A DNA stretch of 45,206 bases from Opitutales bacterium (GTDB taxonomy: Bacteria; Verrucomicrobiota; Verrucomicrobiia; Opitutales; Opitutaceae): contig JABITN010000261.1 in NCBI GenBank assembly GCA_018700525.1, forward strand, positions 1 through 45,206, given 5' to 3'. Positions 1 to 6,004 of this stretch are shown one piece after another. Position 1 is the first letter of the stretch. Each line of letters opens with the position of its first letter. Position numbers and translations under genes: made by a program. Below the pieces are notes generated by a model. The model saw only the letters and a list, made by a program, of their open reading frames with translations. It made no database searches and had not been told where the DNA came from.

Positions 1-1051
1 AAGTCAATCCAGCACTCGCATAAAACCCGGACCTCGCCATTTTTTGGGTCCAGGTTGAAATTCCGGCTCGATGACGCTGTAGATGCTGAACACCACGAAT
101 CAATACGAAAAGCGTCACCGGAAAAATGCACCATCGCATCAAAAACGTCGCTCCACTATGATAGATCGTATCCAAGGGTCCGCGAAGTGTAAGAATCGGC
201 ATAATGAAATGCGGTGCGATCAATGTTCCAAAAACCATGTTCGCCTGACGCGGTGCGAACAACGACTGCCCAGTTGCTCGCTTCATCAGCCACATCCAAA
301 CCGCGAGCATCGCAGCAACATTGGCCACTTGCAGCACATGCCCCGCTCCCCAAACTGAAAACTCAAAATGCGTTTCAATATCAAGGTTGCCTGGCATGCC
401 AGCAGTCGTCGAAATCCAGGTCGCTCCCGCCAAAACCACAACAATAGCAGAAGCCTGTAATCCAATCGCTGCCTCACTCGGCACCCAGGCTGGCAATGCT
501 AAGCTCGCCGACTCTCTTTTAGAAGAAATCAACGCATGGACGAACTGACCAATCACTCCCAGGAAAAACAGCCCAAGTCCTCCTAGGAAAAACGGATGAT
601 CAATCACCGGTATATAGTTCGCTAATACTGGTTGAGCCCCCTTTGCAACTCCCCCCATGAGCATTCCCACCACGCCAACAACCGAAACGATAAAAGCACC
701 TTTACGAATCGCCGACTCCGACCCTTTCTTCACCAACGATATCAATCCAGCGATGAATGCGTAAAACCAAACCACCAATGCCAGATCCACATGGACGACC
801 AAACACCGTTTGAACCAGAGCGGATCATCGATGAACTGTGAAATGAACGGCAGCCGACCGATCACAACAGCTAATGAAAGCAATCCCGCAATAACGATAC
901 TTCCAATCGCTAGAAGGATCCATCGCCGCGTTTCCGCCGACACGATTTCAGCGTCAATTTCAGTAGCTACTTCAACTCGGCTCGAAACATTAGGAGCATA
1001 CGAAGTTTCAGGTCTAAAAACTCGGAGGAAATTACTGATGAGCACTTGCAT
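1..1051 (-). CDS. heme-copper oxidase subunit I-like membrane protein (3' end outside window)
   Basis: The minus-strand frame is open from an ATG at 1051 to the window edge, giving 350 residues with no stop. It encodes many hydrophobic helices. One helix carries VVHVDLALVVWFY, with H87 placed like the low-spin heme ligand of heme-copper oxidases. A later helix has WGAGHVLQVAN, with H238 placed like a CuB ligand. H281 and H298 lie in the following helices. This resembles the cytochrome c/quinol oxidase subunit I superfamily, but it is not a clear cbb3, aa3 or NorB protein. A stop codon lies shortly upstream of 1051, and this is the first ATG after it. A perfect FNR-type box lies 50-63 bp upstream of the start, suggesting low-oxygen or NO control. 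The superfamily is fairly secure; the substrate is unknown. Confidence 0.72.
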   Translation of the reverse strand, partial: MQVLISNFLRVFRPETSYAPNVSSRVEVATEIDAEIVSAETRRWILLAIGSIVIAGLLSLAVVIGRLPFISQFIDDPLWFKRCLVVHVDLALVVWFYAFIAGLISLVKKGSESAIRKGAFIVSVVGVVGMLMGGVAKGAQPVLANYIPVIDHPFFLGGLGLFFLGVIGQFVHALISSKRESASLALPAWVPSEAAIGLQASAIVVVLAGATWISTTAGMPGNLDIETHFEFSVWGAGHVLQVANVAAMLAVWMWLMKRATGQSLFAPRQANMVFGTLIAPHFIMPILTLRGPLDTIYHSGATFLMRWCIFPVTLFVLIRGVQHLQRHRAGISTWTQKMARSGFYASAGLT

Positions 1052-1100
1052 AGTGGGGATCTTCAGCTCCAGGTTATAACCTGCTCACCGCCCCTTAGCT

Positions 1101-1114
1101 TTGATCCAGATCAA
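1101..1114. promoter_or_regulatory. FNR/Dnr/NNR-type operator
   Basis: The sequence TTGATCCAGATCAA is a perfect match to the TTGAT-N4-ATCAA consensus of Crp/Fnr-family regulators (FNR, ANR, Dnr). It sits just upstream of the minus-strand oxidase-like gene. If centred at -41.5, transcription would start near 1066, about 15 bases before the start codon. The match is seen directly; which regulator binds is inferred. Confidence 0.7.
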
Positions 1115-4071: not shown

Positions 4072-5040
4072 ATGAACTCCAGAAGACGATTTCTCACCCT
4101 ATCAACCCTCGGCTCCCTAACCGGACTCGGATCTCTCAAAGCATTTGGCCAAGTCAAGCCTGTCAAAGGCCCCATCATCATATCAACTTGGAATACGGGA
4201 ATCAGAGCTAACAACCTAGGTTACGAAATTTTGCAAAACGGAGGCAGCGTGCTCGATTGCGTAGAAAAAGGCGTCAACGTAATCGAGAACGACCCGAATA
4301 ATCGAACCGTAGGTATCGGCGGATTCCCTGATATCGAAGGCAATGTCACGCTCGATGCTTGTATCATGGACCAACACCAACACTGCGGATCCGTCGCGTT
4401 CCTCCAGCATATTAAGAATCCCGTTTCCGTCGCCCGTAAAGTAATGGAGAATACCAAGCATGTCATGCTCGTTGGCGAAGGAGCCCTAAAATTCGCCCTC
4501 GAACAAGGTTTCAAGAAAGAGGTACTCCTTACCGAAAAAACGCTGACCGCATGGAAGAAGCGTAAAGCGGAGGAAGACGACAAACTTCCAGAAATCAATA
4601 TCGAGAATCATGATACAATCGGTATGATCGCTCGCGACGCCGATGGCAATCTCTCCGGCTCCTGCACAACTAGCGGGGCGGGAATGAAACTGCATGGCCG
4701 AGTCGGCGACTCCCCAATTATCGGAGCAGGACTTTACGTCGACAACGATATCGGTGGAGCCGCAGCCACCGGTTGGGGCGAAGCCGTTATCGAAAACGCA
4801 GGAAGCGCAATGGTTGTCGAACTCATGCGCCACGGACGCTCGCCACAAGAGGCCTGCGAAGAAATCGTGCGTCGCATCGCCAACAAATTGGAAGATTGGC
4901 GATCCATCCAAGTCGGCTTCATCGCTCTCAACAAAGCCGGCCAAACCGGAGCTTTCTCCATTAAAAAAGGTTTTACCTACGCCCATCACTCCGGCGGTCA
5001 AAACACCGAAAGACCTGCCGACAGCCTAATAAAAGGATAG
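4072..5040 (+). CDS. exported glycosylasparaginase (N4-(beta-N-acetylglucosaminyl)-L-asparaginase)
   Basis: The protein has 322 residues. The N-terminus MNSRRRFLTLSTLGSLTGLG is a Tat-type signal (RRRFL). The mature part is an N-terminal-nucleophile hydrolase of the asparaginase-2 family. NPNNRTVGIGG-type text (DPNNRTVGIGGFPD) and MDQHQHCGSVAFL precede the processing site HDTIGMIARD, where T182 would become the nucleophile after autocleavage. SCTTSGAGMKLHGRVGDSP and ATGWGEAV build the active site of the small subunit. It should cleave GlcNAc-Asn bonds from glycopeptides outside the cytoplasm, fitting a scavenging role beside the secreted esterases. Confidence 0.92.
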   Translation: MNSRRRFLTLSTLGSLTGLGSLKAFGQVKPVKGPIIISTWNTGIRANNLGYEILQNGGSVLDCVEKGVNVIENDPNNRTVGIGGFPDIEGNVTLDACIMDQHQHCGSVAFLQHIKNPVSVARKVMENTKHVMLVGEGALKFALEQGFKKEVLLTEKTLTAWKKRKAEEDDKLPEINIENHDTIGMIARDADGNLSGSCTTSGAGMKLHGRVGDSPIIGAGLYVDNDIGGAAATGWGEAVIENAGSAMVVELMRHGRSPQEACEEIVRRIANKLEDWRSIQVGFIALNKAGQTGAFSIKKGFTYAHHSGGQNTERPADSLIKG

Positions 5041-5122: not shown

Positions 5123-6004
5123 CTACCCGCCAATAACGCGCGATAAAAAGCGGTGTATCCGATCCATGCGTTCCGCATCGTAAAACATCGCTCCTCCGTG
5201 CTTCGCTCCATGCAGAGCTTCGAAAATAACCGGGGCCCCTACTGACTCGTACCTTCCCTCCAGCTCATGAGATTGATTGATCGGCATTTGCGGATCCTGA
5301 TCTCCATGGATCATCAACAGCGGCGGATCATTTGCATCGACATGGAAAACCGGACTAGCCAAACGCGTTTCATCGACCAAATCATCCGGTTGCCCCCCGA
5401 TAAACAAATCCAATGCCGGTACTCGTACACTCAAACCATGTGGCGTCGATTGATTCAATATAGTCGTCAGATTACTAGCCCCATACAAAGAAACAATTCC
5501 CTGAATAGCCGAGCTCTCGCTTCGATAATCACCAACCTTCCCTTCGAGAACTTCATGACCATTTGTAATCCCCGCCAAAGCCGCCAAATGGCCGCCTGCC
5601 GAAGAACCAATTATAAATACGTTATCAGCTTTTATTCCGAACTTCTCGCTTTTCGCCCGCAAAAAACGAATCGCTGCCTTGATATCGTGAATCTGAGCAG
5701 GAAAGCGAGCCTCGCCACTTAAGCGGTAATCGACACTCGCAATCGCCCACCCTTTGTCGACTAGCCCCACTACCGGAACCTTGTCCTTCGAGCCAGAACG
5801 CCAAGCCCCTCCATGTATCCAAACAATAACTCCATTTATAGAGTAGTTCTCTGGAATATACAGGTCGAGTTTCAAATGCCGGCTTCCTACAACCGCATAT
5901 TCGACGTCCTTAGTCGCTTTTATAACTTCCTCGCTTCTACCGGACAACCATAGTAGACAACCCAACGCTCCCATCAACCATATCTTAGTCACTCGGTAAT
6001 TCAT
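5123..6004 (-). CDS. secreted alpha/beta hydrolase (esterase/lipase, BD-FAE-like)
   Basis: The protein has 293 residues. An N-terminal hydrophobic segment (IWLMGALGCLLWLSG) suggests export. VIVWIHGGAWRSGSKD carries the HGG oxyanion-hole motif of hormone-sensitive-lipase-like enzymes. GSSAGGHLAALAG is the nucleophile elbow. HGDQDPQMP supplies the acidic residue and HGAKHGG the histidine of the triad. Substrates in this group include acetylated or feruloylated xylans and small esters. It lies opposite to and convergent with the glycosylasparaginase gene. The class is certain; the substrate is not. Confidence 0.88.
   Translation of the reverse strand: MNYRVTKIWLMGALGCLLWLSGRSEEVIKATKDVEYAVVGSRHLKLDLYIPENYSINGVIVWIHGGAWRSGSKDKVPVVGLVDKGWAIASVDYRLSGEARFPAQIHDIKAAIRFLRAKSEKFGIKADNVFIIGSSAGGHLAALAGITNGHEVLEGKVGDYRSESSAIQGIVSLYGASNLTTILNQSTPHGLSVRVPALDLFIGGQPDDLVDETRLASPVFHVDANDPPLLMIHGDQDPQMPINQSHELEGRYESVGAPVIFEALHGAKHGGAMFYDAERMDRIHRFLSRVIGG

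Follow-up and report, generated by a model that had tools for sequence, protein, structure and literature searches.

The window, i.e., the whole stretch of DNA analysed here, is an entire contig of 45,206 b, belonging to an assembly of 4.8 Mb in 268 contigs (96.5% complete). At its left edge lies an open reading frame, designated ORF1, which reads leftwards from the ATG at 1051 and continues without a stop codon up to the contig end at position 2. It is preceded by a -10-like hexamer and a box of the FNR/DNR type (Table 1). The box TTGATCCAGATCAA is found exactly where an earlier note on this DNA had placed it, and the distance of about 50 bp claimed between box and start codon holds as well. 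Its description as a 14-bp perfect palindrome requires correction: only 12 of the 14 bases pair (arms TTGATC/GATCAA), while the central CA is unpaired.

Table 1. Coordinates of ORF1 and its upstream elements in the window
Feature	Position	Strand	Remarks
ORF1	2..1051	(-)	350 aa can be read; the contig end removes the C-terminal part from TM10 HxH on
ORF1 start codon ATG	1049..1051	(-)	aligns with the starts of loci L022 and L023
-10-like hexamer TATAAC	1073..1078	(-)	22 nt downstream of the box
FNR/DNR-type box, TTGATCTGGATCAA on the gene strand	1101..1114	(-)	exact half-sites TTGAT-N4-ATCAA

The truncated ORF1 product is poorly recognized by general searches. Its Pfam match to COX1 (21.4 bits) falls below the cut-off of 34.8, as does the only further match, to a short transmembrane model; the sole NCBIfam match is far under the cut-off. 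A single-sequence phmmer search of the PDB gave no match, and a search for ORF1 in plasmids was likewise negative. In the relatives, the full-length protein comprises ∼450-500 aa.

ORF1 was detected in 6 of 57 related genomes (its own included), and its distribution is patchy, since of 10 further genomes in the genus only one (G006) carries it; loci L010 and L022 represent a single contig of that genome and were counted once. A collection of genome contigs contributed 12 ORF1 loci. Among 387 genomes of the window's phylum, taken to be Verrucomicrobiota, 14 matched, eight of which were counted as ORF1 (470-649 bits; the window's and seven others), while in the remaining six the best match (35-53 bits) is a B-type protein or one resembling NorY, the catalytic subunit encoded downstream of ORF1 in the relatives. 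In the phylum of L033, ORF1 was present in 2 of 82 genomes, a third match being NorY-like. In a second phylum, that of L031, which we infer to be Myxococcota, 49 of 377 genomes matched, and 40 were counted as ORF1 (>190 bits); seven of the other nine matches score like NorY without an ORF1 match, and two are weak (20-25 bits). From these 40 genomes 30 loci were examined (27 new ones and L030-L032), the 10 lower-scoring ones being left out.

The promoter box and its putative regulator

The exact pattern TTGAT-N4-ATCAA occurs once in the window, at the ORF1 box, and sites with at most one mismatch number seven, versus 1.96 expected (none of 100 shuffles reached seven). Across the 4.8-Mb genome there are eight exact sites, versus three for the reversed pattern. 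Taken alone, this genome count makes the box mildly unusual and constitutes weak evidence. Three of the other seven exact sites lie within long frames, two lie between frames (L004 and L008) and two are ambiguous; by eye, no NO-related or anaerobic target was recognized among the seven.

Conservation of the box was surveyed in the 390 bp before the conserved region of 20 ORF1 loci, 16 from the window's phylum (window included) together with L030-L033. A box matching TTGAT-N4-ATCAA at 9 or more of its 10 positions was present in 12 of the 20, and at all 10 in seven, as compared with 0.17 and 0.007 on average, and 3 and 1 at most, in 300 rounds of dinucleotide shuffles. Three further loci carry an exact TTGAC-N4-GTCAA. 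When either motif was accepted at 9/10 or better, 15 of the 16 loci of the window's phylum were positive (10 of the 16 with an exact match), versus a mean of 0.16 and a maximum of 2 in 500 mononucleotide shuffles, although these loci are related by descent and not fully independent, a kinship that shuffles do not model. The upstream regions of the window, L022 and L023 can hardly be aligned, yet CTTGAT(C/T)TG(G/T)ATCAA stands out in them. Within the window's phylum, L027 has no box before ORF1; none was seen before ORF1 in L030-L033, nor, at 9/10 or better, in any of 27 loci of the second phylum.

The distance between box and -10 element appears to be fixed. Among 17 boxes (16 from the 15 positive loci, plus one before nnrS, described below), 14 are followed at exactly 22 nt by a hexamer starting with TA. 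The mean match to TATAAT at this distance is 3.59 of 6, versus 0.47-2.24 for any other spacing between 5 and 49, and at spacings of 21-23 nt at least four of the six positions match in 13 of the 17 boxes (shuffle mean 1.0, maximum 5 in 2000). In class II CRP/FNR promoters the box is centred at -41.5, which corresponds to 22 nt between box and -10 element; the spacing therefore places the centre of the present box at -41.5, the predicted position of a class II activator. A sigma-70 scan of positions 900-1400, which also demands a -35 hexamer, returned no promoter. The comparative evidence is decisive, and the box is thereby confirmed, at the level of sequence conservation, as a real activator-like site. 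In a related locus (L081 8304-12540, genome G039), five FNR-like boxes at 9/10 or better, four of them exact, form a dense cluster of ∼4.2 kb that surrounds ORF1 and a CRP/FNR gene.

A PF13545 search of the window's own genome detected one intact CRP/FNR protein (62 bits), with cNMP-binding and HTH domains. The HTH contains the sequence ETLSR, and ETxSR in the recognition helix is the rule for TTGAT-type specificity. The C-x2-C-x5-C motif is absent from this protein, which thus combines a TTGAT-type recognition helix with the lack of an Fe-S cluster motif that is typical of DNR/NnrR regulators. Its gene follows an nnrS gene (PF05940, 98.8 bits). The 4.8-Mb genome contains the 13-mer TTGATCTGGATCA at two places only, in the window box and in the promoter of this nnrS-crp/fnr pair, 49-36 bp upstream of nnrS, where the box matches at 9/10; the reversed control of the 13-mer gave no match in the genome. 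Moreover, CRP/FNR homologs (44% and 48% identical to that of the window's genome) are encoded within ∼5 kb of ORF1 in G039 and G023, i.e., in 2 of the 12 loci compared. A second CRP-type HTH match (L021 1501-1713, minus strand, G000:C29; 39.7 bits, above the cut-off) falls in a frame of 121 aa that is interrupted by two TAG codons and is possibly a remnant.

Owing to the missing cysteine motif, the nnrS neighbour, the common 13-mer and the CRP/FNR homologs near ORF1, the regulator is best read as DNR/NnrR-like and presumably NO-responsive. NnrR is described without a cysteine-cluster motif (PMC8139620). The likeness to DNR/NnrR activators, as known here from sequence, extends to the box, the -41.5 geometry, the location of the regulator gene beside nnrS and the absence of the cysteine cluster.

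Two other readings concern the box itself. The half-site is common to FNR and DNR/NnrR regulators, and the box might be read by an oxygen-sensing FNR that switches on a low-oxygen operon; this would alter only the signal and would be compatible with the role proposed below for ORF1. In its favour, the B-type operon of Nitrosomonas europaea, proposed as an sNOR, is induced by O2 limitation (PMC6967387). Nonetheless, an FNR is an unlikely reader of the box, given that the sole intact PF13545 gene in a 96.5%-complete assembly lacks the cluster motif and adjoins nnrS. A functionless chance match, with which the modest excess of sites in the genome and the absence of a recognizable target among the other seven would agree, has next to no probability and was rejected: it is contradicted by the footprint in nearly all loci of the phylum, by the fixed 22-nt spacing and by a 13-mer found elsewhere only at the nnrS promoter.

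Fold, metal ligands and ancestry of the ORF1 protein

The full-length relative encoded by L023 is 63% identical to the window protein, and its fold was predicted with a mean pLDDT of 82.9 and a pTM of 0.85. The model matches subunit I of heme-copper oxidases (HCOs), with a best Foldseek E of 2.8e-06 and VIA Z values of 25.1-28.1 over 396-429 residues among the 50 matches listed, which are subunit I throughout. The best solved match of the ORF1 profile is subunit I of the Thermus thermophilus ba3 oxidase (E 6.3e-06). Kinship with HCO subunit I, in both the 12-helix fold and the sequence relationship, is thus established on L023 and on the family profile.

The metal ligands were compared in an alignment of 49 ORF1, 15 NorY and 8 oxidase sequences. 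In ORF1, the TM2 and TM6 histidines are present in 49 of 49 sequences, and the TM10 HxH in all 48 that reach it (the window sequence ends earlier). Conversely, the TM7 His-His pair is present in none of the 49, its second position being Pro in 47. Four residues after the TM6 His, at the site of the catalytic, cross-linked Tyr of oxygen-reducing HCOs (Tyr in 8 of 8 oxidases), all 49 ORF1 sequences have V, L, A, F or C. Arg438 and Lys439 are each present in 47 of 47 sequences, where NorY and the oxidases have Arg-Arg. In the numbering of T. thermophilus ba3, we take the retained residues to be the counterparts of H72, H233, H384 and H386, and the missing ones those of H282/H283 and Y237; ORF1 thus lacks the CuB His pair and the Tyr of its best solved match. 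The catalytic subunit I of the HCO superfamily is defined by a histidine sextet (PMC3413370), and ORF1 keeps four of the six.

The suggestion in the earlier note that the gene does not encode a standard subunit I is borne out by the weak COX1 match of the window protein and by the missing TM7 CuB histidines in the relatives, and a standard catalytic subunit of an oxidase or NO reductase (NOR) was rejected on account of the absent TM7 pair. The same note had made HCO membership depend on the remaining metal ligands of the full protein, and here the outcome is divided: the relatives retain every heme ligand and a single CuB histidine, yet neither the TM7 histidines of CuB nor the Tyr is found in them.

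In a tree of 45 rows (22 of them ORF1, with no qNOR included), ORF1 forms one clade (100/100), sister to NorY (100/99). The stem of the ORF1 clade is very long (4.19), and the sister position may therefore be distorted. ORF1 also diverges faster than NorY, with identities of 58% versus 82% between L023 and L024 and of 42% versus 70% between L032 and L024.

Not every copy of ORF1 is uninterrupted. In L022, the nearest relative, an in-frame stop at 4208-4210 follows 403 codons while homology runs on behind it, and in G592, G840 and G856 ORF1 was matched in pieces; some copies may therefore be broken or misassembled. A decayed gene family was rejected, as the ligands are invariant in 49 rows and most frames are full length.

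Gene neighbourhood and the adjacent NorSY genes

In the relatives, ORF1 is followed by genes for a CuA subunit (NorS) and the catalytic NorY and then, where seen, by a SenC/SCO gene and a cytochrome b/ferredoxin gene. NorS is encoded directly downstream of ORF1 in 45 of the 47 loci with readable downstream sequence (15 in the window's phylum and 30 in the second phylum), and NorY is visible in 43 of these 45; the other two loci end at a contig end (L093) or in a run of N (L102). In the window and in L027 a contig end truncates the downstream sequence. In L033 and L079, the two loci that differ, ORF1 stands in front of an SCO gene and a caa3 oxidase.

At these two loci (L033 7935-15446 and L079 7752-14975), which carry the earliest-branching ORF1 sequences, the order after ORF1 is SCO and then caa3 (coxA, III, II and a UbiA-family gene). 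A UbiA-family gene, probably encoding heme O synthase, is also located divergently upstream of ORF1 in L024, L025, L028, G039 and G017. In L117 (G850) a run of N begins soon after the end of norS at 5199 and may hide norY.

Among the 387 genomes of the phylum, NorY (E ≤ 1e-100) was detected in the seven ORF1 genomes other than the window's and in G127. NorSY operons without an adjacent ORF1 occur in Thermus, Thermomicrobium, Defluviimonas and G127, so that reductases of this type do not generally require ORF1. In the window's own assembly, which is fragmented and whose contig ends inside ORF1, norY was not found, nor was a COX2-type gene, although the latter search is insensitive to NorS (21.3 bits versus COX2) and has no bearing on NosZ. 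The presence of the operon at the window is consequently deduced from the relatives.

Additional genes accompany the cluster in some relatives. An Rrf2 regulator is encoded in the L024 region, as are two hemerythrin proteins, of which one has a ScdA_N domain; this combination fits NO stress. A conserved operon protein of ∼700 aa (L024 12920-15034 and relatives; in G017 together with FlpD) combines cytochrome b and 4Fe-4S ferredoxin domains and could be the module through which electrons enter the NO reductase.

With respect to its identity, NorS falls just under the COX2 cut-off of 22 bits, and its CoxB match (45.8 bits) is below the cut-off of 147.7. As in eNOR, a cupredoxin (CuA) subunit II adjoins subunit I. 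The best solved match of NorY is again the T. thermophilus ba3 subunit I (E ∼1e-60), and all six histidines are present in 14 of 15 NorY sequences. The exception is the Thermus sequence, a NorY-like protein encoded on a T. thermophilus plasmid (L036 6983-8668), in which the motif GHFK places a Lys at the second TM10 position, where His stands in the 14 other NorY and the 8 oxidase sequences. At the Tyr site (+4) NorY has Gln in 15 of 15 sequences, and Asn occurs only at +6.

According to PMC8756737, Gln occupies the Tyr site in eNOR and, in its Table A4, Asn does so in sNOR. The Asn of sNOR, an enzyme known here by description alone, is thus missing from the Tyr site of NorY, and the partner is termed eNOR-like; an initial assignment to sNOR by gene order was dropped on this published basis. 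The NorSY of the relatives shares with eNOR a CuA cupredoxin subunit immediately before a Gln-bearing subunit I. The differences are that ORF1 is not the catalytic subunit of such an enzyme and that the accessible text of PMC8756737 mentions no third, CuB-less HCO-like gene.

In ammonia oxidizers, PMC4940428 and PMC4964001 describe a cluster norSY-senC-orf1, which resembles the present one in having a CuA subunit, an HCO subunit I and SenC in order together with an extra gene. However, orf1 stands last in that cluster while ORF1 stands first here, a comparison made by gene order only. The authors of PMC6967387 suggested that the sNOR of N. europaea may be a terminal oxidase, which calls for caution in naming any such enzyme an NO reductase.

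CuA-type NORs (eNOR, sNOR, bNOR and others) are known. A survey based on the database of Murali et al. 2024 sorted Nor types over genomes including Verrucomicrobiota (PMC12569097), and the NorSY side of the operon has therefore probably been catalogued already. The literature searched, Murali et al. 2024 (PNAS) and its supplement not among it, yielded no description of a subunit-I paralog that lacks CuB and belongs to a NOR operon.

A possible role for ORF1 and its alternatives

The explanation that we favour, with a confidence somewhat better than even, is that of an NO-induced, eNOR-like operon in which ORF1 is a non-catalytic diheme partner of NorSY. The edge of the window would hold the first gene of an operon for a CuA-type, eNOR-like NO reductase, its order being that of the relatives. 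In the presence of NO, a DNR/NnrR-like CRP/FNR protein without the cluster, encoded next to nnrS, would bind the box at -41.5 and activate transcription. NorSY would then reduce NO to N2O with electrons delivered via CuA. ORF1, in which the residues that ligate the low-spin heme and the former active-site heme are preserved, would bind two hemes and serve as a membrane-bound partner of NorSY, either an electron-relay or a structural subunit. A redox role is suggested by the strict conservation of the heme-site residues. In a more specific form, the invariant TM6 His, freed from CuB, would ligate the former active-site heme distally. The broader proposition of a third, so far undescribed class of NOR subunit, in which an HCO fold acts as a pure electron-transfer protein with two bis-His hemes, the TM6 His serving as distal ligand, and a catalytically silent subunit I dimerizes with an active one, is tentative, and we hold it to be rather doubtful. 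The earlier note had suggested that the gene may encode a superfamily member connected with NO or low oxygen; its kinship and its context, i.e., the adjacent CuA NOR genes of the relatives and the box shared with nnrS-crp/fnr, agree with this, but ORF1 is probably not itself the enzyme.

The alternatives differ in what ORF1 would do. It could be an assembly factor, an oxidase-like scaffold that loads heme or copper into NorY (or caa3) and remains outside the final enzyme, as the SCO/SenC and UbiA-family genes close by in several loci of both gene contexts would suggest. The change of partner, NorSY in most loci and caa3 in L033 and L079, and the faster divergence of ORF1 relative to NorY are in line with such a role, and the existence of NorSY operons without ORF1, together with ORF1 in front of a caa3 oxidase, keeps it alive. 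Yet the heme-site histidines do not vary across the 49 aligned sequences, which is more than a scaffold seems to need, and the Defluviimonas and Thermomicrobium operons that lack ORF1 still have heme O synthase (in Defluviimonas also SCO), so that we regard an assembly role as possible but less than likely. ORF1 might also be catalytic in its own right, with a reorganised site, e.g., an NO-binding high-spin heme without CuB or a chemistry like that of NO dismutases, in view of its invariant TM6 His and first TM10 His, the ligand of the active-site heme. The proposed NO dismutases are likewise HCO relatives with altered active-site ligands, one ligand His being replaced by Asn (PMC3413370). They keep all histidines but one, however, and group with qNORs, whereas four of the six histidines remain in ORF1, whose sister group in the tree is NorY. 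Since all 49 sequences lack two of the three CuB ligands and the Tyr, and a complete NO reductase is encoded next door in the relatives, catalysis by ORF1 appears quite improbable. Finally, ORF1 could be a buffer or signal protein that binds NO or O2 without direct contact to NorSY; the near-identical promoter box common to ORF1 and nnrS in the same genome would fit, and without CuB the heme might be left open to bind NO. The immediate succession of ORF1 and NorS in all but two of the readable loci, in two phyla and even where the box is missing, argues against this, and we consider it very improbable.

NO reductases produce N2O, a greenhouse gas, and to our knowledge regulation in the window's phylum has been little studied. 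The promoter described here would define a directly testable, probably NO-responsive regulon. In two phyla, many eNOR-like operons are marked by a conserved companion gene that retains the heme sites without the CuB pair, and ORF1 offers a clean test of the role of an oxidase fold after its active site has been dismantled. If the favoured explanation of ORF1 as a silent NorSY partner is true, the gene order would reflect an unusual pairing in which one subunit I is catalytic and the other silent. In annotation, NORs such as bNOR and sNOR are labelled by KEGG as cytochrome oxidase coxA (PMC11388526).

A second odd subunit I is encoded in the same genome (L018 1363-2841, minus strand, G000:C62), with a COX1 match of 99 bits. 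FixO-like and cytochrome c genes lie behind it, and in front of it lies a membrane gene without a Pfam match, which we presume to resemble ActF. By eye this protein lacks usual histidines (TM6 reads WYAENVFG), so that it is possibly a further oxidase subunit without catalytic activity.
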